Shown here one piece after another: positions 14,564-61,078 of a DNA stretch of 64,000 bases. How positions within the stretch are numbered: position 1 is the stretch's first letter; the number at the start of each line of letters is the position of its first letter. A model generated the notes under the pieces. It was not told where the DNA came from, did no database searches, and was given only the letters and a program-made list of their open reading frames with translations. The stretch covers positions 62,001-126,000 of the forward strand of contig JAUICH010000015.1 in assembly GCA_030427505.1 (NCBI GenBank), read 5' to 3'. Made by a program: the position numbers and the translations under genes. The stretch comes from Verrucomicrobiia bacterium. Lineage in GTDB: Bacteria > Verrucomicrobiota > Verrucomicrobiia > Verrucomicrobiales > DEV007.

Positions 14564-14826
14564 CCCCTGCCGCCGGGCTGAAAGCCCTGGCGCACAAGGC
14601 ACAGGTCTTTAGGCCTGAGTTTCTTGCCCGTTTGCTCATTGGCGGGCGGAAGGCCCGCGAGCGAGGGCTCGCTGGCGCCAAGGGTCCCCACGCGGCCCGT
14701 GCAATTGCGGCGCCTTGGAACGATTCGGACGTCCGCTCGCGGACCTTCAGCCCGCAAGGAGATTCGGTCGCTAACCCAGGGTTGAAACCCTGGGCTTTGT
14801 GCGGCAGGGCTTTCAGCCCTGAACGT
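14564..14826. repeat. Modular palindromic intergenic repeat, copy A
   Basis: A cluster of short palindromes fills most of the 657-bp gap between rplT and pheS. GGGCT-GAA-AGCCC (14575-14587) is followed by an inverted linker GGCGCACAAGG (14589-14599) and a CAGG/CCTG arm. GCGGGC/GCCCGC pairs lie at about 14642-14658. CCCAGGGTT-GA-AACCCTGGG (14775-14794) is followed by the linker CTTTGTGCGGC (14795-14805) and AGGGCTTTCAGCCCT (14806-14820). The same module recurs at 33.7, 44.0 and 47.7 kb. The last 250 bp before pheS contain no other recognised feature. Confidence 0.75.
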
Positions 14827-46093: not shown

Positions 46094-47485
46094 CTATTCC
46101 TCCAGCTCGATCCCGCGCGTTTCTTTCGCGAAGTAAACCACCGCCACGCCCACCAGGTAGAGGGGTGACAACAGCATGGCCTTTTCGCTGGGTCCCACAG
46201 GGAACATACCAAACAGGAAAAACGCCAGCGCCATGGCCAGGCGGCCCATGTTGAAACAGAAGCCCGAACCCGTGCCGCGCAACCGGGTGGGATACAGCTC
46301 GGGGAAATAGACAGCATAGCCCGCGTGCATGCCCAAGGTAAAAAAGCCGAAGACCGGCAGAGTGACGACTAATAGCCAGGCGGGCGCGTGATGAGGGATG
46401 AGTCCTTTGAACATGATCAGCACCATTACAAAGGCCACCGCGTGGTAGAGCACAAAAGCTCCTTTCCGTCCCAGACGGTTGGAGATGGCGCCGAACAGGA
46501 CGAGGCCGAGACCGCCGCCGATGGTGTTCAGTGTCATGCTCAACATTTCCGCATTCTTAATGCGTGACTTGTGCTTCTCAAAGGCCGCGGCTTTCTGCTC
46601 TTTGTATTCCTGGGTAGCGCTCAGGTCTTCTGGGGCGGGCGGCATGTTTGGCACGCCTTCTTCCACCATCACTTCAGCCTGCGCGTTACGCAGCAGGGCG
46701 TCTTTTCCGTAGATGTGAGCGCCCCAGAAAGTCACCAGGCCGATGGAGGCCAAGGTCACGCCCACCAGGGTGTTTCGCAGGTTCTTTGCATTGAACAGCT
46801 CGCTGATCCGGCCGGGTTTCAGATTGGTATCGGCTTTGGCTTTTTCCCGGGCCTTGGTCCACTGCTCCGGCTCTTTCATTTTCCAGCGGATCCACACCGT
46901 AAGCAGGGCGGGCAAGACACCGATGGCGAATCCCCATCGCCAGCCCAAGTCTTCATTCCCCACGATGAAAGCGCCCGCCGCCGCCGCGAGCAGAGTGCCG
47001 AAGACGCTGCTGGCGTGGAAGATGGAGCTCATGACCGGGCGCGCCCGCGTGGGCATGACCTCCGCCACCATGGCGGAAGCCACGGCCCATTCGCCACCCA
47101 CGCCCATGGCCACCACGAAACGCAGGGCGATGAGCTGCCAGGCCTCCTGCACAAAGGCCTGCATGAGGGTAAACACGGAATAAAAAAGGATGGTGATGAT
47201 GAGCGTTTTCGACCGGCCTATCTTGTCGCTAACGATCCCAAAGACCACGCCGCCCAGCGCTCCGCCGAGGGCAAAAGCGGCAAAGCCGTAATCCGCCCAG
47301 CTCAGAAATTTCGGGTGATCCGGCCCCACGCCGAGCAGGTCGGGAAAGACGTCCCGCATCGAAGAAACGAAGATTTGACCCTCGAAAATGTCGAAGATCC
47401 AGCCCAGGGACGCGATCAGGAGAACGAGCCATTGATACTTGGTGATGCCGCTGTACCAGGCCTGCTTATTGGGGTCGTTACTCAT
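46094..47485 (-). CDS. MFS transporter
   Basis: 463 residues from the ATG at 47485, which begins MSNDPNKQAWYSGITKYQWL; the frame continues upstream but that part covers a repeat and is not coding-like. Twelve membrane helices are expected. Typical MFS loop text: FGIVSDKIGRSKTLI between helices 2 and 3, and RLGRKGAF in the second half. A 50-residue polar loop (about 250-310) separates the halves. The start IFDIFEGQIFVSSM resembles aromatic-acid or sugar-acid symporters. Substrate unknown. Confidence 0.88.
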   Translation of the reverse strand: MSNDPNKQAWYSGITKYQWLVLLIASLGWIFDIFEGQIFVSSMRDVFPDLLGVGPDHPKFLSWADYGFAAFALGGALGGVVFGIVSDKIGRSKTLIITILFYSVFTLMQAFVQEAWQLIALRFVVAMGVGGEWAVASAMVAEVMPTRARPVMSSIFHASSVFGTLLAAAAGAFIVGNEDLGWRWGFAIGVLPALLTVWIRWKMKEPEQWTKAREKAKADTNLKPGRISELFNAKNLRNTLVGVTLASIGLVTFWGAHIYGKDALLRNAQAEVMVEEGVPNMPPAPEDLSATQEYKEQKAAAFEKHKSRIKNAEMLSMTLNTIGGGLGLVLFGAISNRLGRKGAFVLYHAVAFVMVLIMFKGLIPHHAPAWLLVVTLPVFGFFTLGMHAGYAVYFPELYPTRLRGTGSGFCFNMGRLAMALAFFLFGMFPVGPSEKAMLLSPLYLVGVAVVYFAKETRGIELEE

Positions 47486-47699
47486 CGTGGGTTCGCTGGG
47501 GTAGAGTTGGGGGTGTTTCGACAACGCGGGCAATCCGCCCACGGAAGGAGCCCTTTCATAGCCCAAGAGCCGGGCAGGGCCAAGGGCGCTTTCGCGTGAT
47601 CTTTGAGCCGGGGCGCGATTGGAAGGAAACAGCAGCTCTGATAGATAGAACCGCTGGCGAAAGATCAAAGGGGAGGCTTCCTGTATTTTGTTAGTTCGC

Positions 47700-47795
47700 G
47701 AGCGGGCTTCCAGCCCGCGAACCCTCATGGCGCCGGGATTCCAGGGCTGAAGCCCCTCGCTTTGTGCGGCCGGCCTTCCAGGCCGGTAAGACACA
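47700..47795. repeat. Modular palindromic intergenic repeat, copy D
   Basis: Within the 361-bp gap before the TolC-family gene. GCGGGCTTCCAGCCCGC (47702-47718), an imperfect AGGGCT/AGCCC palindrome near 47743-47756, linker CTTTGTGCGGC (47760-47770) and CGGCCT-TCC-AGGCCG (47771-47785). The linker is identical to that of copy A while both palindromes differ. No gene was recognised in the rest of the gap. Confidence 0.72.
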
Positions 47796-47846
47796 CGCGA
47801 AACCAACGGGGTTCACCCGGGGGCAATATCCGATGAGCCGAACCTT

Positions 47847-49811
47847 CTACCAGCCCAGCGGATTGCTGAAGGGATTCATGGATCCCCCACCGAAGCCACC
47901 ATTCCCGGCCGGGGCTGGCGTTGTTGGGGCAGTCTCCCATTGAGGGGTAAAGGCAGGGGCAGGTTCGCGACGTTGCTTGGTGGGGGCTTCATTGGAAGCG
48001 GCCTTTGCCTTCGGGGGCGCTGGCGGCGCGGGACGGGCCGGGGCGGTCACGTTCACGATTTGGACAGGGGTTTCCTGAGCCGGACGGGAAGGGCGGCGGA
48101 CGGCCGTCTGGGGGGCGGCATCGGCGCTCATCCAGGCCGGAGGACGGAGGGTCTTGGGCGTCGCCGGGACGAGGCGGGCCAGGTCGCTGCCTTCCAGGGT
48201 GTCCACCAGCTTGCCAGAGGCGGCCAGCATGGCGTATTCGCCGCGATAGAGGTTGAATTTTTCCACCACGAACAGGCTGCGGGCTTCAAAGAGTTCGTCC
48301 TTCAGGTCCAGGAGATTCAACACGGGCTGCTTGGTCGCTTCGTAGTCCGTTTCGAGAGCACGGATAGCGTCTTCCAGGGTATCCGCGTAGCGGCGATGGG
48401 TCCGCATGCGCTCGATGGCGCTGACGCGCAGTTCCTGGCCCTGGCTCCACAGTTGCTCGGCATCGAGCTGAGCCGCGCCGATCATTTCGTAGGCTTCGGC
48501 GGCTCCGGCCTGGGTGCGGTTGATTTCGGCCCGGCGGTAGCCGCCGTCCAGGATGTCATAACTGGCCACCACCAGGGCGGAGAACTCTTCGCGATCGTTT
48601 CTCAAGTCACCCGTCAGGGCATCACCAGTGCGGCCGCCGAGTTCCAGATCCACACGGGGCAGGCGCAGGGCTTTGGCGGCCTTTTGATCCAGCTCCAAGG
48701 CGGAGAGCAACTGGCTGGCGGCCAGCACTTCCCAGTTCCCACCGGTGTCCAAAGATTGAAGGTAGGCCGGATTGGCCCGCGGCGGACGCGCGGAAGCGCC
48801 GCCAGTGGCGCGGGCCACGGCCCGGTAGCGCGCCAGGGCATCGCGGGCCATCAGTTCCTGTCCCTGCAGGAGAGATTGTGCCCGGCTCAGGCGGCTGGCG
48901 ACGAGATCCACATCTGACTGGGAGCGCAGCCCGCGGTGTCGCTTGTCGCTGGTCTGATTGAGCAACGCTTTGTGAACAGCCACGTTTTCGCGGGCCAAAC
49001 CTGCGATTTCCTGGGCCTGCAGGAGATCCAGGTAGGCGGTGCTGAAATCAACGGCCACCAGCTGTGCCGTGGAGCGCGCTGAATATTCCGCCGCCCGGGC
49101 GCGGGCCTCCGCCGCCCGCTGGGTGTTCCGGGAACGGAAACCATCGAACAGTTGCTGGGTTAGCACCAGCCGCACCTCGTGGCGTTCCCTCCAGCCGTCG
49201 AAGGCGCTCGACCCCCTGCTGCCGCAGGAACCGGAAGACTTCCCGCAGGAGCCGTAGGACGAACTGTAGGAGTTCCCGCAGGAACCTCCGGAAGAGCCGC
49301 AAGAGCCCCCTGACGAACTACGGGAAGACCCGCCATACGACTGCCCGTAGGCGGCCTGGACATACAGGTGAGGCATCCGCTCCGAACGAATGGCCTGGGC
49401 CTCCTGATACAGGGCCTGGGAAGCGTAGCGAGCCGCATTCACCCGGGGGTGATTCAGGATCAAGCCGCTACCGCCGGTGGAGGCAAAGGAAACGGGAGCC
49501 AAAGAGACACGCGGGCTGGGCGCGGAAACCGGAGCCTTACCCGGCGAGCTGGGAGCCCGAAAGGAAGGGCTCTTCGCGGAATACACGACCTCCGCGCCCC
49601 GGATTTCTTCCGCCGTGTAGGACGCGCCCCGCATACCCCCAGGCAGCGAACAACTGGTGGCCAAGAGCAAGACCGGAAGCGTCAACAGCCAGCGGCATGG
49701 GAACCGGGACGGCGGAGCAACAGTAGCACCAGAGGCGTCTCGGGCCACGGCGCGGCCGGAGGGGGTGAGGCACAAGAACGGGCGTGGACGGGCAGGTGTC
49801 ATAGCAGGCAC
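47847..49811 (-). CDS. TolC-family outer-membrane protein with Cys/Gly/Ser loop
   Basis: 654 residues. After about 40 residues comes a signal region (WLLTLPVLLLATSCSLPGG) with a loose lipobox at Cys54, so it may be a lipoprotein. The TolC fold follows, with two repeats: NHPRVNAARYASQALYQEAQ and LTQQLFDGFRSRNTQRAAEARARA in the first, then long coiled coils. Between the first two beta strands is an insertion of about 45 Gly/Ser residues with four Cys (171, 178, 189, 196; two C-x6-C pairs), where TolC has its outer surface loop. A Pro/Ala-rich tail of about 100 residues ends the protein. It is divergent from the Alg8/HlyD-like genes, its probable partners. Confidence 0.85.
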   Translation of the reverse strand: MPAMTPARPRPFLCLTPSGRAVARDASGATVAPPSRFPCRWLLTLPVLLLATSCSLPGGMRGASYTAEEIRGAEVVYSAKSPSFRAPSSPGKAPVSAPSPRVSLAPVSFASTGGSGLILNHPRVNAARYASQALYQEAQAIRSERMPHLYVQAAYGQSYGGSSRSSSGGSCGSSGGSCGNSYSSSYGSCGKSSGSCGSRGSSAFDGWRERHEVRLVLTQQLFDGFRSRNTQRAAEARARAAEYSARSTAQLVAVDFSTAYLDLLQAQEIAGLARENVAVHKALLNQTSDKRHRGLRSQSDVDLVASRLSRAQSLLQGQELMARDALARYRAVARATGGASARPPRANPAYLQSLDTGGNWEVLAASQLLSALELDQKAAKALRLPRVDLELGGRTGDALTGDLRNDREEFSALVVASYDILDGGYRRAEINRTQAGAAEAYEMIGAAQLDAEQLWSQGQELRVSAIERMRTHRRYADTLEDAIRALETDYEATKQPVLNLLDLKDELFEARSLFVVEKFNLYRGEYAMLAASGKLVDTLEGSDLARLVPATPKTLRPPAWMSADAAPQTAVRRPSRPAQETPVQIVNVTAPARPAPPAPPKAKAASNEAPTKQRREPAPAFTPQWETAPTTPAPAGNGGFGGGSMNPFSNPLGW

Positions 49812-49952
49812 TAAGAATTATGGTAATTCAATTTAACTCAACCTTGAGAGGACTTGCAATGATAAAAATCAGAAATGAAATAAGTTTTGAATCTATCTGA
49901 AATTATCTTGTAATTTCTTGTATTTAGATTTAATGCGGTATTTTTCGCAGGC
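49812..49952. promoter_or_regulatory. AT-rich divergent promoter region of the TolC and Alg8-like genes
   Basis: 141 bp with strikingly low GC between GC-rich genes. It contains an inverted repeat CTCAA-CC-TTGAG (49837-49848), the same arms as the palindrome before rpmI. Several TTGTAA/TTGTAT and TTTAAT-like hexamers occur, but no pair is convincing enough to name. Confidence 0.45.
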
Positions 49953-51473
49953 ATGAGATTTAACTTTGCGAATTCAGGTTGGCTCGCCTCCGCGCTCTTC
50001 ACGACCGCGGTCTGCCTCTCCGTGCCAGCACTGGTGCTCCTGACCGTGCCGGATCGCATTTTCGCTCAGTATCGCGAGGCTCTGTTCGTCATCGGTTTCT
50101 TCGGCGCATGGCGCTACAGCTGGTTCTTGTTGAATGCGTTGCGCAGCGCGTTCTTCAACCTGGCGCGGTATCCCGCGCTGCGCCGGGCCTGCCTGAAGCT
50201 GCCGCGCCCCCTTCCCCAGCGGCTCTACGTGGTGGTGCTGTCCTACAAGGAACGGGCCGACACCTCGGAAGCCTGCTTCACCGCCATTACCCGGACGCTA
50301 CGGGAGGTGGACTGCGAAAAGGTGGTCGTCGTCAGCGTCGCCACCCCAGAGGAAGCCCACTTCATCCGGGGCGTGGTGGAGCGCAATGGCGGGCACGGCA
50401 TCGACCTCCGTTTCACCAAGCAGGCCCACGGAAAACGCTACGCCATCGGTCACGCCCTGCGCTTCCTGCGCGAACACCGGAAAAACCTGCCCCCCAGCAA
50501 TCCGCACGGAGACGTGGTGCTCCTGATGGATGGAGACAGCGTGCTGGGGGACGGCATTTTTTCCAAGTGCCTGCCGCATTTCAACCTGGACCCCGGCCTG
50601 GGCGCCCTGACCACCAACGAAACCGTGCGGCGCTCGCCCCGCTGGATCATCACGCAGTGGTTCCGGCTGAAGTTCGCGAAGCGGCATTTCTACATGTCCT
50701 CCCACGCGCTGTCTTACCGGGTCATGACGTTGACGGGACGGGGCTCCTTCGTCCGCGCCAGCATCGCGCTTTCGTCTGAGTTCATTCGGTACCTGGAACA
50801 GGACTACATCGACCACCCCCTGCACGGGCGCATCCGCTTCCTGCTGGGGGATGACAAGAGCACCCTCTTCTGCGTCCTGAAACAGGGCTGGCGCATGCTC
50901 TACGTGCCGGACGTGATGGTTTACGCAAACGAAGACCGGGAGGTTCCCTTCGGCCAACTGACCACCACGCTGATGGTGCGCTGGTATGGGAACATGCTGC
51001 GGAACAATGCCCGCTGCCTGAGCCTGGGCATCGGTCGGAGACGCCTGCCGCTGTTCATCTGGCTGGGATTTCTGGACCAGCGCCTCTCCATGTGGACGGG
51101 TCTGGTCGGCCCGCTGAGCGCGCTGCTGGCCGGTATATTCAAGAGCATCTACCTGATCCCCATTTACTTCGGCTGGGTGTTCTTTGTCCGCGCCATTCAG
51201 CTGTGGGTGTTCGCCAGCAGTGGCGTGCGCATGTCTCCCGTCATGATCCCGTTGATGCTCTACGATCAGATCGTGGGCTCAGTCATGAAGATCCACGGCA
51301 TCTTCCACCAAGGCGAGCAGCATTGGTCAAAGGGCGATCACAGCTCTTCGGAGATTTCCGGCGAAAGCGTTTACCAAGTGCTCCATTCCCGGCTGGCCAT
51401 GACGGCCAGTTGCCTCCTGTTCGTCGCTTTCCTGCTGATCGTCCTGAAGGTGGTCCCTTCCCCACTTGGCTAA
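49953..51473 (+). CDS. Alg8-like polysaccharide synthase (GT2 family)
   Basis: 506-residue membrane glycosyltransferase closely resembling Alg8, the alginate (mannuronan) synthase. N-terminal helices (about 10-35, 43-66), then cytoplasmic GT2 domain: LYVVVLSYKERADTSEA, metal-binding DGD at 193-195 (LLMDGDSVLGDG), TTNETV, LLGDDKSTLF with acidic pair at 300-301, and RW at 343-344 (MVRWYGNMLRNNAR). C-terminal helices follow (LFIWLGFLDQRLSMWTGLVGP onward). No AlgD, AlgG or AlgE-type gene is near, so the polymer may not be alginate. Followed by the HlyD-like gene. Confidence 0.9.
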   Translation: MRFNFANSGWLASALFTTAVCLSVPALVLLTVPDRIFAQYREALFVIGFFGAWRYSWFLLNALRSAFFNLARYPALRRACLKLPRPLPQRLYVVVLSYKERADTSEACFTAITRTLREVDCEKVVVVSVATPEEAHFIRGVVERNGGHGIDLRFTKQAHGKRYAIGHALRFLREHRKNLPPSNPHGDVVLLMDGDSVLGDGIFSKCLPHFNLDPGLGALTTNETVRRSPRWIITQWFRLKFAKRHFYMSSHALSYRVMTLTGRGSFVRASIALSSEFIRYLEQDYIDHPLHGRIRFLLGDDKSTLFCVLKQGWRMLYVPDVMVYANEDREVPFGQLTTTLMVRWYGNMLRNNARCLSLGIGRRRLPLFIWLGFLDQRLSMWTGLVGPLSALLAGIFKSIYLIPIYFGWVFFVRAIQLWVFASSGVRMSPVMIPLMLYDQIVGSVMKIHGIFHQGEQHWSKGDHSSSEISGESVYQVLHSRLAMTASCLLFVAFLLIVLKVVPSPLG

Positions 51474-51498
51474 GCCCCAAAAACCTTCCTCACCGCAC

Positions 51499-53085
51499 AT
51501 GCATTCCCGCATCCAACACGATACCCGCCACGAAAATGGCAATTCCAATGGCAACGGCCACGGCCGTGGGTTCGGCACGGCGACGCATTCCAACGGGCAC
51601 GGCCCGTTCGTGGATACCAGTCACTACCCGTTGCCCGGGGTGCGGAAGGACGACATCGGACGCGAACCGCAAAAGCCAAAGCCCCATGCCCTGACAGCGG
51701 TCTGGCTCATCCTGATCTGCGCGTTTTCCGTGGCGGCCATCTGGTTTGTTGGCCGGGAGTTTGGCAGCGCCACCAGCCTGCAAGCCGTCTCCATGGGTAA
51801 CCTGGTTCACGTCCGCGCCGAGGCGCCGGGCCTGGTGAAAGACGTCTTCACAGACACCCAGCGCCCCGTGAAACCCGGCGACCTGCTTCTGGAGTTGGAC
51901 CCCTCCAGCCTGCGGGAACAACTGGACCAATTGGAAACGGTGCGCGCGTTGAAAGAAGCCGAAGTGGCCCAGCTCAACCGGGGCATCACGGAGGAGAAAA
52001 AACGCATCGCGCTCCTGCACGACATTTCCGCCCGGGAAGAAAGAATGATCGGGCTGGAGATCGATCGCCTGAAACTCCAGTCCGAGCTGACCGCCGAACG
52101 CGCCGCGGAATTGAAAGGCAGTTTCGGCCATGGGAGCGCCAATCGCTTCGAGTTCATTGAGGCGGAAAGTCAGCGCCTGCAAGCCGCCAAGAACCTGGAG
52201 GAAAAGGAACACCAACTGGAACTCCAGAAGCTGATCACCCAGAATGCCGCCGAAGGGCGCTACTATCATGATGGGGAAGTACGTCGGGTGCTGGACGACC
52301 TGGAAGTGCAACAGGCCGCGATCGCCACGCAGCTGGGTGAAATCTCTCTACAGACCTCCGAACTCCGTTCCCGCCTTCAGCAGACGAGCATCCGCGCCAC
52401 GCGGGAAGGCGAGGTCTTTGCGGTGCACTACCTTCCCGGCGCCTCCGTGCAGGCCGGCGACCCATTGGTGACCCTGGAGACCGGCGACAAGCTGTGGGTA
52501 CTGGCCAGCTTTCAATACAACGAGGCGGAACAGATCGCCTACGGAGATCAGGCGGAGGTGACTTTTCCCTCCGTGGGCCGGACGCTGCACGGCGTGGTCC
52601 GGGCCATCGGCCATGAAGCGCTGGGCGCTCTGGACGCGAATTCTCCTTTCCTGCGCCTCACGCCGGAGGAGGTGCTCGTGAAAGTGGAACTTTCGGAACG
52701 TCCCTCCAATCTGCGGCCCGGCATGACCGCGCATGTCCGGATTGGCACCTTTCATTTCTTCAAACCGAAGTTCCCGGAAATCGAGGCGTCACAGCCCGTG
52801 CGGCAGACGGCCCCGGCGCCGCCGCGGCCGGAAGAAAGAGTCTCTCCTCTGCTGGAGCCGGAACCAACGCCGCCGGCCCAAACCCATCTGGACCTCACCT
52901 CTCTGGAGTCTACCGAGCCGGACGGCGGGCCAGCCTACAAGATCGACCCCAAGCCCAAACCCGAGGTGGAAGCGGAATGGGAGCCTCAGGATTCCACCAA
53001 GCAGACCGAGCCATTGGCCACGAGCAGCCATCCTCACGCCCCTTCCACTCCGTCTCCCCTGACCGGCCACATCGCCTGGGAATAG
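51499..53085 (+). CDS. HlyD/Alg44-like periplasmic adaptor
   Basis: 528 residues from the ATG at 51499 (a TTG at 51466 is also possible). A polar His/Asn/Gly-rich head, one membrane helix (about 60-85, ALTAVWLILICAFSVAAIWFVG), a split biotinyl-lipoyl domain (LVHVRAEAPGLVKDVF and TREGEVFAVHYLPGASVQAGDPL), a long coiled-coil hairpin, a beta-barrel domain and a Pro-rich tail. This is the HlyD architecture of Alg44 but without the N-terminal PilZ (cyclic-di-GMP) domain of Alg44. It should link the synthase to the TolC-family protein. Confidence 0.85.
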   Translation: MHSRIQHDTRHENGNSNGNGHGRGFGTATHSNGHGPFVDTSHYPLPGVRKDDIGREPQKPKPHALTAVWLILICAFSVAAIWFVGREFGSATSLQAVSMGNLVHVRAEAPGLVKDVFTDTQRPVKPGDLLLELDPSSLREQLDQLETVRALKEAEVAQLNRGITEEKKRIALLHDISAREERMIGLEIDRLKLQSELTAERAAELKGSFGHGSANRFEFIEAESQRLQAAKNLEEKEHQLELQKLITQNAAEGRYYHDGEVRRVLDDLEVQQAAIATQLGEISLQTSELRSRLQQTSIRATREGEVFAVHYLPGASVQAGDPLVTLETGDKLWVLASFQYNEAEQIAYGDQAEVTFPSVGRTLHGVVRAIGHEALGALDANSPFLRLTPEEVLVKVELSERPSNLRPGMTAHVRIGTFHFFKPKFPEIEASQPVRQTAPAPPRPEERVSPLLEPEPTPPAQTHLDLTSLESTEPDGGPAYKIDPKPKPEVEAEWEPQDSTKQTEPLATSSHPHAPSTPSPLTGHIAWE

Positions 53086-53129
53086 CTCACCTCCTTCTAC
53101 ACCACCAACAACCACCAGACTTACCCGCC

Positions 53130-54200
53130 ATGATCCGACTGGAAGAAATCTATAAGAACCGCCGTGTCCTCATCACGGGTGGCTTCGGCTTTGTGGGCAG
53201 CCACCTGGCCAAGCGCCTGGTCGAATGCGGCGCCGAGATCACCGTGCTGGACATTGCCACCGACCTGATGCGCCGCTCTCTGATCAATTGCCCGGTGAAC
53301 AACGTGAGAAGCGCCGTGCGAGTGATCAAAGCGGACGTCAACAACCGCGAGTTTCTCTGCGAACTGCTCGCCGACTACCAGTTTGACTACATTTTCAACT
53401 GCGCGGCGCACGCCGCCGTGATCGAAAAAGCGGTGGACGAACCCGCCGCCACCATCATGACCAACACGCTGGGCGTGGTTTCCCTGCTGGAAGCGGTGCG
53501 GGAAACGGGCTGCTACCCGCGCGGCATTTTCCACGCCTCCACGGACAAGGTTTATGGCGAACTTCAGGGCGCGGACTACGAAGAAGAAAAGACCCCGCTC
53601 CGGGCCATTGGGGTGTATGACGCCTCCAAGCTGGCGGCGGATCTCCTGACCCGCACCTATCATGAGGTCTTCGAGATCCCCGTGACGATCCTGCGGATGT
53701 GCAATCTCTTCGGTCCCTATGACTTCAATACCGAATACCGCCTGATTCCCAAGTCCTTCTCCAGCATCTTTACCGGCGAATGTCCGCAGCTCTACATGGA
53801 CTCGCTGGACCACTACCGGGAGTATCTCTACATCGACGACGCGGTGGAGGTGATTTTGGAAATGACGGTCCGGCAGAGTTGCGTGGGAGAAGCCTTCAAC
53901 CTGATGGGCAGCCAATACATTTCCACGGGATCGGTCATGCAGAAGATCGTGGATGCCGCTTCCCAAGTGATGAACTATCGCAACACCAAGGACGCGGAAA
54001 TGATCCGGAGCCGCCGCTATGTAGTGGTGGAACGGGTGGCTGCTGGGAAGAAGATCATTTCGTTGAAGAAGCAACGGCTGAACGCGGAGAAACTGAAGGG
54101 AGCCATTGAGTTCCGGCCCCGTGTCAGTTTCGAAGAAGGGCTGGCCCGCACGGCGGAATTTTACCGCTACTTTTACCACGACGTGTTGGCGGCGGCCTGA
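53130..54200 (+). CDS. NAD-dependent epimerase/dehydratase (extended SDR) 1
   Basis: 356 residues from the ATG at 53130. Rossmann motif VLITGGFGFVGSHLAKRL (TGGxGFxGxH), catalytic STDKVYGE with YDASK (Tyr and Lys of YxxxK), and a C-terminal substrate domain. Most like CDP-glucose or dTDP-glucose 4,6-dehydratases and related nucleotide-sugar epimerases. It follows the adaptor by 44 bp and is probably part of the exopolysaccharide operon, making or altering its nucleotide sugar. Confidence 0.9.
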   Translation: MIRLEEIYKNRRVLITGGFGFVGSHLAKRLVECGAEITVLDIATDLMRRSLINCPVNNVRSAVRVIKADVNNREFLCELLADYQFDYIFNCAAHAAVIEKAVDEPAATIMTNTLGVVSLLEAVRETGCYPRGIFHASTDKVYGELQGADYEEEKTPLRAIGVYDASKLAADLLTRTYHEVFEIPVTILRMCNLFGPYDFNTEYRLIPKSFSSIFTGECPQLYMDSLDHYREYLYIDDAVEVILEMTVRQSCVGEAFNLMGSQYISTGSVMQKIVDAASQVMNYRNTKDAEMIRSRRYVVVERVAAGKKIISLKKQRLNAEKLKGAIEFRPRVSFEEGLARTAEFYRYFYHDVLAAA

Positions 54201-54221
54201 GGCTCCCGCCCGCTACCCACT

Positions 54222-55334
54222 ATGTTAAACGGCGTGCACCAGTTCCAACTCGAGTTTCCAAAAGAGGCCGGGATTTCCTGGCGGGGGCGCTGTTGTCTGG
54301 TGACGGGCGGATGTGGCTTTGGCGGCGCGCACCTGGTCCGGCAACTCGTCGAACGTGGCGCGGAAGTGGTGGTGATCGACCGCTCGCCTCCAGAGGGCAG
54401 CAGCCTGGACCTGCTCGGCCTGTCCCGCGGCGTGGCCTACATCCGGGGCGACCTGTCTCAGCCCGGCCTCCTGCGCCATGTGCTTTTCGAGTTCCGGATC
54501 GATTACGTTTTTCACCTGGCGGCGCAGCCCCTGGTGCCGCTCAGCATCGAGCAGCCACGGGAAACCATGGAGTCGAACTTTCACGCCACGCTGGAACTGC
54601 TCGAAACTCTGCGGGACACGCGGCCACAGTGCGGGCTCGTCTATGCCTCCAGCGCCGCTTGCTACGGGGCGACCCGGGAGCGCCGCCCCATTCCCGAAGA
54701 CTACGCGCCGCAGGCGTTCGAGAATCCCTACGCCGCTTCCAAACTGGCCGCCGATGCCCTGGTGCGCACCTATGCCCGCTGCTATGGGCTGCGCGCCGTG
54801 GTCTGCCGCTTCATGAACACCTACGGGCCCGGCGACCGGAACTTCTCGCGGCTCGTTCCCGGCGCCATCCGCCGCCTGACCGAAGGAAGGCCCTATGATT
54901 TCGGGGACCGGGACGACGGCCAGACGGAGCTGGATTTCCTGCACGTATGCGACATGACCCGCGCCTACCTGTTGGCCGGTCTGTCCCTGGACACGGTTTC
55001 GGGACACGCCATCAACTTCGGCAGCGGCAGCCCCCTGAGCGTGGACTGGGTAACGCGCTGCGTCAGCCGCGCCTTTGACGGCAAGGAACGGACGCCACTT
55101 TTTCGCGGCAAGCGGCAACGCATTCCACGGCGGAAGTCCCTGGACATCGGCAAGGCGCGGGCCCTCCTGGGCTGGGCCCCGCAGATTGCTCCGGAGATGG
55201 GCTTGGCGGGTACCGTGGCGTGGTACTGTGAGAACTGGGAACGCGTGCAGGCCTTTGCGGAAGCTTCCAACGAAACCTCCCCTCACGAGGAAAGGCGGCT
55301 GGAACATTCCCGGCTCAACGGAATGGCACGGTAG
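54222..55334 (+). CDS. NAD-dependent epimerase/dehydratase (extended SDR) 2
   Basis: 370 residues. Rossmann motif LVTGGCGFGGAHLVRQLVERG, catalytic SSAACYG and YAASK, then TYGPGDRNFSRLVPGAIRRL and the C-terminal cap. A different nucleotide-sugar SDR from its neighbour, 21 bp downstream. Together the pair could carry out two steps (for example dehydration and epimerisation) on one sugar. Precise substrate cannot be read from sequence. Confidence 0.9.
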   Translation: MLNGVHQFQLEFPKEAGISWRGRCCLVTGGCGFGGAHLVRQLVERGAEVVVIDRSPPEGSSLDLLGLSRGVAYIRGDLSQPGLLRHVLFEFRIDYVFHLAAQPLVPLSIEQPRETMESNFHATLELLETLRDTRPQCGLVYASSAACYGATRERRPIPEDYAPQAFENPYAASKLAADALVRTYARCYGLRAVVCRFMNTYGPGDRNFSRLVPGAIRRLTEGRPYDFGDRDDGQTELDFLHVCDMTRAYLLAGLSLDTVSGHAINFGSGSPLSVDWVTRCVSRAFDGKERTPLFRGKRQRIPRRKSLDIGKARALLGWAPQIAPEMGLAGTVAWYCENWERVQAFAEASNETSPHEERRLEHSRLNGMAR

Positions 55335-58420: not shown

Positions 58421-61078
58421 TCAGGAATCCACGCCACCGGAAAGGCGGGCCTGGCTGGCGAGGATGGACTTGATCTCGGAGGCGATCTTCGGAATCGGGT
58501 CCTGGCGCTTGGGCAACACGGCGCGGGTGCTGTCCTTCAGGCGGGCGGCTTCTTCCAGCGTCAGTTCCTGACCGGACAGCACGATGATGGGCGGACGCTT
58601 CTCCACCGGCATTTCGCGAAGGTGATCCACAAACTGGAAGCCGTCCATCTGCGGCATGGAGAGGTCCAGCAAGACCAGGTTGATCTGATATTCTTTCAGG
58701 ATCTGAAGCGCGGCCTGACCGTCCGCCGCTTCGATGACCTGACAGTGATCGTCGCTGAGAAGCTTACGGATGACCATGCGGTAGCGTTCGTCGTCTTCCA
58801 CCAGCAGCACGTTGATCCCGCCCTCTGGGGCGGCAACGGGCTCGGATGAAGCCACCAGTTCCTTCGCCTCGACTCCAATGACCGGCAGGAAGAGGTCGAT
58901 GCGGGTGGGCTTCTCTTCGTCCGCTTCCGTGGCCAGGAAACCGCCCAGCCGCTTCGCTTCGGCTTCCGCCTTCTGGAGCGGGTGCGTGGCCTCCTCACCA
59001 GCCTGAGCATAGATATTGACGTGCTTATCCAGAATGAGGCGGAAGCAGTACCAGTCGTCCTTGGTTTCCGGGTGCTTGAAAACTTTCGCGGCCAGGGCAG
59101 CCTGAGCCCGCTGGGTGGAATTCGCCGCGTAGGTCAAAATACCCAGCAGGAGTCCGCGAATGCGATTCCGGTCGCCCGTCATGATGCCGAGATCGGGCGA
59201 CCAACTACGATTCAGGTGACTGCCGCGGCCATCAAAGATGGAATGAACGGAGTCACACAGCTGATTGAGCAGCTCTGGCACCACGATCGGTTTCAGCGAT
59301 GAGGTCTCTTGTTTCTTGGCTGGCTTCTCTGCCTGAGCAGGCTTTTTGGGAAGCCAGGCCACTCCACGGCCTTCCACGTTTTCCCGGAAAACGGTGACAT
59401 AGTGCGGACCATCTTTGAGCAGCGCTTTCGTGAAGCAGAAGGTGGCCTTGAAGTCCGTGCCGTTAGGGCGCACCACGCGGATTTCCACCGGGCCACCACT
59501 CTTGCAGCACCGGTCCAGCCACGTCACGGGTTCCACGGCTTCTCCATCGGGACCGGGAACGGATTTGAGGTCGATGAAGCGGGTGACTTCTCTTCCCGCG
59601 ATGCTCTCCGAAGGCGCTCCCAGGATGACGCCTGCCGCGGAGTTCAGCCGCGTGACGCGCAGGGTATCCACGGAAAAAGCGATCACGCCGTCCGGCACCG
59701 TGTTGAACAGCGCCCGGGCAAAGCCCGAGGAGTCCACCAGCGCATCCACCACGCGTTGGTAGGCAACAGCCAAATTTTGGATGCCATGGGCTTCAGCATT
59801 GGGAATGCCTTCGTCCAGCGACTTGTACTGGGCATGCAACTCCATGATCTCGATGATGTCGCTCATGGGGTCGGCCACGCCGTGTTCGGTCTCGTCGAGC
59901 CCCTCTCTCTGCGCTTGTTCCGACGCCCAGGGGTTCACAAACAGACTGACCACGCGCAGCAGCAGGTAAGGAATGCCAAAGGCCAGAATGCCCGTGGTAA
60001 ACACCCCCACGGCCTGAAGGGCGATGCGCTCTCCCACCGTGCGCTCCAGGCCGAGCACCTCGGGATCGCCATACAGCGCGACGGCGACCACCCCCCACGC
60101 TCCCCCCACCAGCAGCGCGGGAGTGATCAGAGTGGAATCTTCCACTTTGATGCGGATAAGGAAACGATCCACAAACGGCACCAGAATACCCGCCACGCCC
60201 CCGATGAGAGCCGCGCTACCCGCCGGCACAAGGTGGGCGGAGGCCGAGATAGCCGCCAGTCCCGCCAAGCAGCCCGCGATCATGTAATGCAGGGGCGCGG
60301 TCCGGCGGATGAGCAACGAAGGCAGGAGAGAGAGCACCAATCCCGCGCCACCGGCGAGGAACGTCACGGCCATCACCCGGCCCACGGACTCGTGCATCTC
60401 GAAAAACCGGCCGCCCGTCATCCCGGACCAGCCCAGCCAGAGCAGCAGCACGCCGCAGGCTTTCCAGGCCAGGCGCTGCCGGTCCACGATCAGGGCCTTG
60501 ATGTTCTTGGTATGAACGGGCTTGGAACGGCCCGCGCCCACCAAGAGCGCCAGCGCCGCGCAGGCAGCCACGAAGCAGACGGCCGAAGAGCCCCCAAAGT
60601 CAATGAATCCGCTGGTCAGAAGCCAGCCGCCGGGCAGTTCCTTGTCCACACCGTTCCACACCACATGGGCGCAGATGGGGTAAACCAGGCCAGCCATGAG
60701 GGCCGACCAGCAGAGGTGCGATCCAAAGCGCAAGCGGTTCGCCACCGGCGTGGAGGAAAGAAGGACGACGATGGCGGCCGTGAGGAACTGGTAGATGAAA
60801 AACGCCGGATACGTCGGCGCGGAGTCCATGAAGCTGGGAATGAACCCGGACCACCCAAAGACACCGCTGAAGCTCTTACCGAAACTGATCCCGAACCCAA
60901 CAAGCCAAAACGCCAAGACACCCACCGCCAGCCCGGCCAGGGTCCGGCTCACGGCATTGACCCGGTTTCCAAAAGACGCCTGCCCAAGAGTGAGGAACAG
61001 CAAACCGGCGATAACAAACACCAGCAGGCCGGAAGCCAACAACTGCCAAAACAGATCGACCTCGGTTTGAATGGACAT
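58421..61078 (-). CDS. Ammonium-transporter-like sensor fused to PAS, degenerate kinase and receiver domains
   Basis: 885 residues. Residues about 1-380 resemble Amt/MEP transporters (GWLLTSGFIDFGGSSAVCFV; GGVAGILVPFVDRFL; VEDSTLITPALLVGGAWG). The twin pore His are replaced: Cys168 and, in the second motif, Leu. Then a PAS domain (FNTVPDGVIAFSVDTLRVTR), a remnant histidine-kinase region (GDRNRIRGLLLGILTYAA) that lacks a phospho-acceptor box and G boxes, and a C-terminal receiver (VLLVEDDERYR, phospho-Asp in VLLDLSMPQMDG, Lys in VLPKRQD). Likely an ammonium or nutrient sensor rather than a transporter. It is divergent from the PhoD gene. Confidence 0.8.
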   Translation of the reverse strand: MSIQTEVDLFWQLLASGLLVFVIAGLLFLTLGQASFGNRVNAVSRTLAGLAVGVLAFWLVGFGISFGKSFSGVFGWSGFIPSFMDSAPTYPAFFIYQFLTAAIVVLLSSTPVANRLRFGSHLCWSALMAGLVYPICAHVVWNGVDKELPGGWLLTSGFIDFGGSSAVCFVAACAALALLVGAGRSKPVHTKNIKALIVDRQRLAWKACGVLLLWLGWSGMTGGRFFEMHESVGRVMAVTFLAGGAGLVLSLLPSLLIRRTAPLHYMIAGCLAGLAAISASAHLVPAGSAALIGGVAGILVPFVDRFLIRIKVEDSTLITPALLVGGAWGVVAVALYGDPEVLGLERTVGERIALQAVGVFTTGILAFGIPYLLLRVVSLFVNPWASEQAQREGLDETEHGVADPMSDIIEIMELHAQYKSLDEGIPNAEAHGIQNLAVAYQRVVDALVDSSGFARALFNTVPDGVIAFSVDTLRVTRLNSAAGVILGAPSESIAGREVTRFIDLKSVPGPDGEAVEPVTWLDRCCKSGGPVEIRVVRPNGTDFKATFCFTKALLKDGPHYVTVFRENVEGRGVAWLPKKPAQAEKPAKKQETSSLKPIVVPELLNQLCDSVHSIFDGRGSHLNRSWSPDLGIMTGDRNRIRGLLLGILTYAANSTQRAQAALAAKVFKHPETKDDWYCFRLILDKHVNIYAQAGEEATHPLQKAEAEAKRLGGFLATEADEEKPTRIDLFLPVIGVEAKELVASSEPVAAPEGGINVLLVEDDERYRMVIRKLLSDDHCQVIEAADGQAALQILKEYQINLVLLDLSMPQMDGFQFVDHLREMPVEKRPPIIVLSGQELTLEEAARLKDSTRAVLPKRQDPIPKIASEIKSILASQARLSGGVDS

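Follow-up and report, generated by a model that had tools for sequence, protein, structure and literature searches.

Does the Alg8-family synthase encoded at this locus form a dedicated export system with the HlyD-type adaptor and the TolC-family protein encoded beside it, and by which route would its polymer leave the cell? The window (the whole stretch of 64,000 nucleotides that was analysed, C18:62001-126000) comes from a 6.4 Mb genome (G000) that is 96.5% complete. Five genes were confirmed, as the first-pass annotation had read them: a TolC-family outer-membrane factor on the minus strand (47847..49811; Pfam OEP, 2e-36) and, on the plus strand with no more than about 45 bp between genes, a putatively processive GT2 synthase of the Alg8 family (49953..51473; Pfam Glyco_tranf_2_3, 1e-29, together with alignment, AF2 and Foldseek), an HlyD/EmrA-type periplasmic adaptor without PilZ (51466..53085; Pfam HlyD_D23, 2e-13, and HlyD_3, 5e-11, together with AF2 and Foldseek), and two nucleotide-sugar SDRs, one sugar-nucleotide 4,6-dehydratase-like (SDR 1, 53130..54200) and one 4-epimerase-like (SDR 2, 54222..55334), both assigned by Pfam NAD-dependent epimerase/dehydratase (2e-53 and 4e-50, respectively) and by matches to solved structures. 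The AT-rich gap across which the TolC-family gene diverges, also described earlier, measures 141 bp (49812..49952) and is presumed to be the promoter region; no sigma-70 consensus was found in it, and promoter and repeat scans across the locus yielded nothing useful. The true start of the adaptor may be ATG 51499 instead of TTG 51466, and that of SDR 1 is probably ATG 53130, not 52977. Elsewhere in the window, an Acido-Lenti-1 RNA (RF01687) was matched at 14775-14820 on the plus strand with 37.5 bits, barely over the gathering score, and a minus-strand gene at 58421-61078 encodes PAS and response-regulator receiver domains fused to an ammonium transporter domain.

The synthase contains the motifs DGD (residues 193-195), GDDK (299-302) and RWYGN (343-347), with membrane helices at its N- and C-terminal ends. 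Nineteen loci were matched when 85,000 species genomes were scanned with it, and the alphaproteobacterial loci examined among these were alginate-type clusters, composed of an AlgD-like dehydrogenase, the synthase, an Alg44-like protein, a ManC-type pyrophosphorylase, a beta-helix (AlgG-like) protein and a possibly AlgK-like Sel1/TPR protein; the Rhizobium cluster also holds an alginate lyase. The window synthase is 32-40% identical to the synthases of such AlgD/Alg8/Alg44/ManC/AlgG/AlgL clusters (Rhizobium, Rhodobacterales), and it is on this identity that its assignment to Alg8 rests, as Pfam cannot give Alg8. DGD, GDDK and RWxGN were common to twelve aligned synthases, all three being retained in the window. 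No solved structure related by sequence was found; the AF2 model (pLDDT 82, pTM 0.83, from an alignment of 16 rows) resembled hyaluronan synthase and BcsA in Foldseek. Given the identity, the kept motifs and these fold matches, the protein is, by sequence and model, an Alg8-family synthase of the kind expected in an alginate-type system, and processive synthesis by it can soundly be expected. Two related synthases from Hydrogenothermaceae (L008, 1508-3608; L009, 1814-4099), encoded beside a PilZ-HlyD adaptor, carry a C-terminal beta-helix-like region (weak Pfam match) and are apparent synthase-epimerase-like fusions.

No PilZ domain was detected by Pfam in the window adaptor, and its N-terminal tail gave no match to a profile built from nine Alg44 PilZ regions, so that a PilZ hidden there was rejected; a genome-wide profile search likewise detected none anywhere in the window genome. 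The same nine-region profile does detect a degenerate PilZ in the adaptor of a second genome of the family (G003), where the NxSxxG turn is kept and RxxxR is missing. Among the three synthase-associated sets found in the family (see below), PilZ is thus absent from the window and G025 and degenerate in G003. The Alg44-like proteins of Hydrogenothermaceae, G425, G479, the G593 group and Rhizobium do have the domain; in some of them it scores under the Pfam cut-off, but its motifs can be seen. In place of the PilZ of its relatives, residues 1-74 of the window adaptor form a His/Asn/Gly-rich disordered cytoplasmic tail. A second HlyD adaptor in G003 (contig 35, L093 14462-16054), with no synthase nearby, shows the same degenerate PilZ; as the degenerate domain has been kept in both copies, it may have a new role.

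The window genome encodes one GAF-GGDEF protein, with a GGDEY motif, and c-di-GMP may therefore act elsewhere in the cell. No GGDEF protein was found in G003, and a GGDEF match in G025 resembled a class III cyclase and was not counted; GGDEF proteins are present in G425, G593 and G479. Loss of the PilZ receptor accompanies a thin or absent c-di-GMP network in these three family genomes, a number too small for a test.

In the AF2 model (pLDDT 62 overall, pTM 0.39; about 67-93 for the hairpin and lipoyl parts), the adaptor consists of the disordered N-terminal tail, one transmembrane helix, split lipoyl halves, an alpha-hairpin of about 160 residues (147-305) inserted between these halves, a beta-barrel and a disordered C-terminal tail, and it is nearest to EmrA by both sequence and fold (Foldseek best 8zar/4tko). 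HlyD-family adaptors, among them AcrA, MacA, EmrA and HlyD, meet TolC through such a hairpin. The tip of the window hairpin is RLS-like (R212-AAE-L216-KGSFGHG-S224), and presumably one residue longer than the RLS spacing of AcrA. The RLS motif has been named as such (PMC8277102). The hairpin is thus modelled as the kind that docks on TolC, docking itself being predicted. In the alignment it spans 145-160 residues in the adaptors of the window, G003, G025, G479 and Hydrogenothermaceae, and only 5-16 residues in seven alphaproteobacterial Alg44-like proteins, whose clusters carry the Sel1/TPR AlgK-like protein instead. Since some relatives have Alg44-like proteins with both PilZ and the long hairpin, PilZ loss and a TolC-docking hairpin are separable. 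Two further Alg44-like proteins (L045, 7536-8807; L033, 10731-12086), paired with Alg8-family synthases, are built of PilZ, a transmembrane helix and a long coiled coil; an HlyD barrel was not detected in them.

The product of the divergent gene matched the type_I_sec_TolC subfamily at 1e-34, under the cut-off, and TolC in the PDB at E 1e-3, and carries a lipoprotein-like signal (LLATSC). A Ser/Gly/Cys-rich insert at residues ~157-200, with four spaced cysteines (171, 178, 189 and 196), is probably a surface loop of the TolC-type barrel; the cysteines could be disulphide-linked, or the insert could serve as a surface anchor. The OEPs linked to the synthases in G003 and G025 showed no such insert. 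A test for conserved synteny of the set had been proposed, and linkage did recur, in three genomes; it is confined to those three of the 75 in the family, as the synthase itself is rare, intact Alg8-type synthases being present only in the window genome, G003 and G025, with few elsewhere in the phylum. A match in G011 was a fragment amid glycogen-type genes, probably a remnant or an assembly fault. A divergent OEP gene adjoins the set in all three (3/3), and separation of the two in relatives was therefore not observed: the gene lies beside the synthase in the window, beside the adaptor in G003 (L005, HlyD-Alg8) and beside AlgD in G025 (L006, AlgD-HlyD-Alg8). Chance adjacency of a TolC-family gene was estimated at ~0.5% per genome and ~2e-7 for three genomes, figures that derive from rough gene counts, are to be read against the tendency of HlyD and TolC genes to cluster, and measure linkage, not novelty.

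A tree was made of 42 TolC-type proteins, nearly all OEPs of the three genomes among the matches listed. The two OEPs that adjoin the sets of G003 and G025 paired in it (99/97) and were reciprocal best matches among the 42 (E 2e-29, the next being 1e-8 to 1e-10); the window OEP joined them (92/85, not starred) on a long branch, distant, with at most 21% identity to any OEP. This grouping according to linkage suggests that the TolC gene is dedicated and not borrowed at random. The best pairwise match of the window OEP, an RND-linked OEP of G003, was rejected as its orthologue, the tree giving the latter its own orthologue in G000. Three f15 genomes (G593, G610 and G672) with an OEP 2 kb from Alg8 were not counted as the same system, because the OEP is unlike in sequence (NodT/OprM-like start), a coiled-coil gene lies between, and the adaptor is without the HlyD barrel. 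The gene sets did not simply descend together, since the three family synthases do not form one clade (AU p 2e-67): G025 pairs with G479 in the synthase tree and with G003 in the adaptor tree (91/91). Shuffling or transfer of the parts may lie behind this, a history made uncertain by long branches.

No match to the AlgE-family porin (Alginate_exp, PF13372) was obtained in the window genome, extending genome-wide what had been noted at the locus, and no AlgK was found in the cluster; G025 has one strong PF13372 match, on a contig different from that of its cluster. In comparison with the Alg8-Alg44-AlgK-AlgE machine of Pseudomonas and Azotobacter (PMC8461298, PMC12350332), the window set likewise has a synthase of the Alg8 family whose single-pass partner is of the HlyD type, but it is without PilZ and the AlgE family, its partner has the long hairpin of the TolC-docking type, and its operon is without AlgD, AlgA, AlgG and AlgL. 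Atypical alginate operons without algKE have been seen in a survey (PMC7112194), and in cyanobacteria Alg8/BcsA-like proteins have been noted that lack the Alg44 architecture and AlgE/AlgK (PMC4594306).

As to sugar supply, SDR 1 (motifs STDK and YDASK) has dTDP-glucose 4,6-dehydratase as its nearest solved relative (4e-34), and SDR 2 (SSAACYG and YAASK) has UDP-glucose 4-epimerase 4zrm (4e-37). The G025 cluster includes AlgD, GDP-mannose pyrophosphorylase (ManC) and phosphomannose isomerase (PMI), which together point to GDP-mannuronate and make a mannuronate-type polymer likely there and possible in the window, where the operon is without AlgD and ManC. The genome-wide search proposed for AlgD did return a homologue, 50% identical to the AlgD of the G025 cluster and 42% to that of Rhizobium, but on another contig (53), where it adjoins Wza-/WbaP-like genes (named by eye from sequence) of another polysaccharide pathway. 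An alginate-like uronate polymer at the window is most likely but not secure.

The reading that we prefer, with fair confidence and on sequence and predicted structure, is that of a dedicated Alg8-type set for an exopolysaccharide, which would constitute a variant of synthase-dependent export in which the polymer leaves by an adaptor-TolC conduit, probably independently of c-di-GMP. Going by its family and fold, the synthase would polymerise a sugar nucleotide at the inner face and thread the chain through its own membrane helices. The HlyD/EmrA-type adaptor, single-pass and with its long hairpin, would substitute for Alg44 plus AlgK and, as the hairpin, the linkage and the TolC grouping suggest, would dock on the TolC-family protein encoded by the divergent gene and form with it a closed conduit out of the cell. 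The two SDRs would modify the sugar nucleotide, the polymer would probably be a relative of polymannuronate, its chain derived from a uronate or from mannose, and c-di-GMP control through the adaptor has probably been lost. A more far-reaching version is put forward tentatively, with confidence clearly short of even: that this is a third export way for Alg8-made polyuronate, independent of c-di-GMP, in which an EmrA-type adaptor replaces the Alg44 switch and the AlgK scaffold, a dedicated TolC-family tunnel replaces AlgE, and PilZ has been lost or has decayed more than once in the family.

Three other explanations bear on these readings. The closeness of the adaptor to EmrA in sequence and fold, and an MFS gene (46094-47806) that follows tolC immediately and in the same orientation, would fit an ordinary EmrAB-TolC-like drug or solute pump to which the synthase is adjacent by chance. 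We consider this very improbable, and a pump with the neighbouring MFS protein was ruled out, because that protein resembles aromatic-acid/sialate:H+ symporters, not EmrB (DHA2), and because neither of the further adaptor-Alg8-OEP sets, in G003 and in G025, includes an MFS gene; moreover, adaptors of the same family that bear PilZ have Alg8 as their partner in Aquificota and elsewhere. Alternatively, the adaptor could be an Alg44-like co-polymerase only, the tolC linkage being loose and the polymer leaving by an unrecognised porin or one of ~12 other OEPs. This appears unlikely in view of the divergent linkage in 3/3 family members, the grouping of the linked OEPs and the absence of an AlgE-family porin from the window genome, even though no same-contig OEP was found for the PilZ-bearing G425 and G479 among the matches listed, and the alphaproteobacterial Alg44-like proteins are without the hairpin, a linked TolC gene not being seen in their clusters.

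The third explanation concerns the product and would retain adaptor-TolC export: the synthase could make a non-alginate glycan, for example one with a deoxy- or amino-sugar from the two SDRs. The 4,6-dehydratase and 4-epimerase activities of these SDR types are not needed for alginate and would be superfluous for mannuronan, and the missing AlgD and ManC point the same way; the retained conserved columns of the Alg8 family, and the clustering of AlgD and ManC with the set in G025, speak against it, and we regard it as possible but on the unlikely side. The dedicated Alg8-type set with an adaptor-TolC conduit remains the preferred reading.

Its export logic has precedents. The combination of two secretion logics had been thought out of the ordinary, but that it is without precedent was not supported: according to a review (PMC12430437), an XcsA-XcsB-TolC conduit was proposed for cyanobacterial cellulose (Maeda 2018), in which a GT2 synthase, an HlyD-like adaptor and a TolC-like exit replace BcsB/BcsC, and a full gene trio of this kind (synthase, hairpin HlyD adaptor and TolC-type protein) is present in the window. 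In that same account, the model is unvalidated and XcsA, a cellulose synthase, contains PilZ, whereas the window synthase is of the Alg8 family and without PilZ; in Thermosynechococcus the genes of the system lie dispersed with no single operon, whereas those of the window lie in one divergent cluster. A synthase gene is similarly paired with an HlyD-like partner gene in Sinorhizobium/Rhizobium, where BgsB is the HlyD-type partner of the mixed-linkage beta-glucan synthase BgsA, a CESA-like enzyme with its own c-di-GMP-binding C-terminus, TolC not being mentioned there (PMC9495663). EmrAB-TolC shares the adaptor fold, the long hairpin and the TolC-type exit, but its inner-membrane partner is an MFS pump where that of the window is a polysaccharide synthase. 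Among open-licence papers, none was found that links an Alg8-family synthase with TolC; adaptor-TolC export as such is not new, but its use with a synthase of the Alg8 family is, as far as searched. The clustered synthase, adaptor and TolC-type genes offer a compact system for testing the adaptor-TolC route. The PilZ receptor for c-di-GMP is held essential in Pseudomonas alginate, and an Alg8-family synthase whose partner lacks this receptor raises the question of how its activity is switched on.
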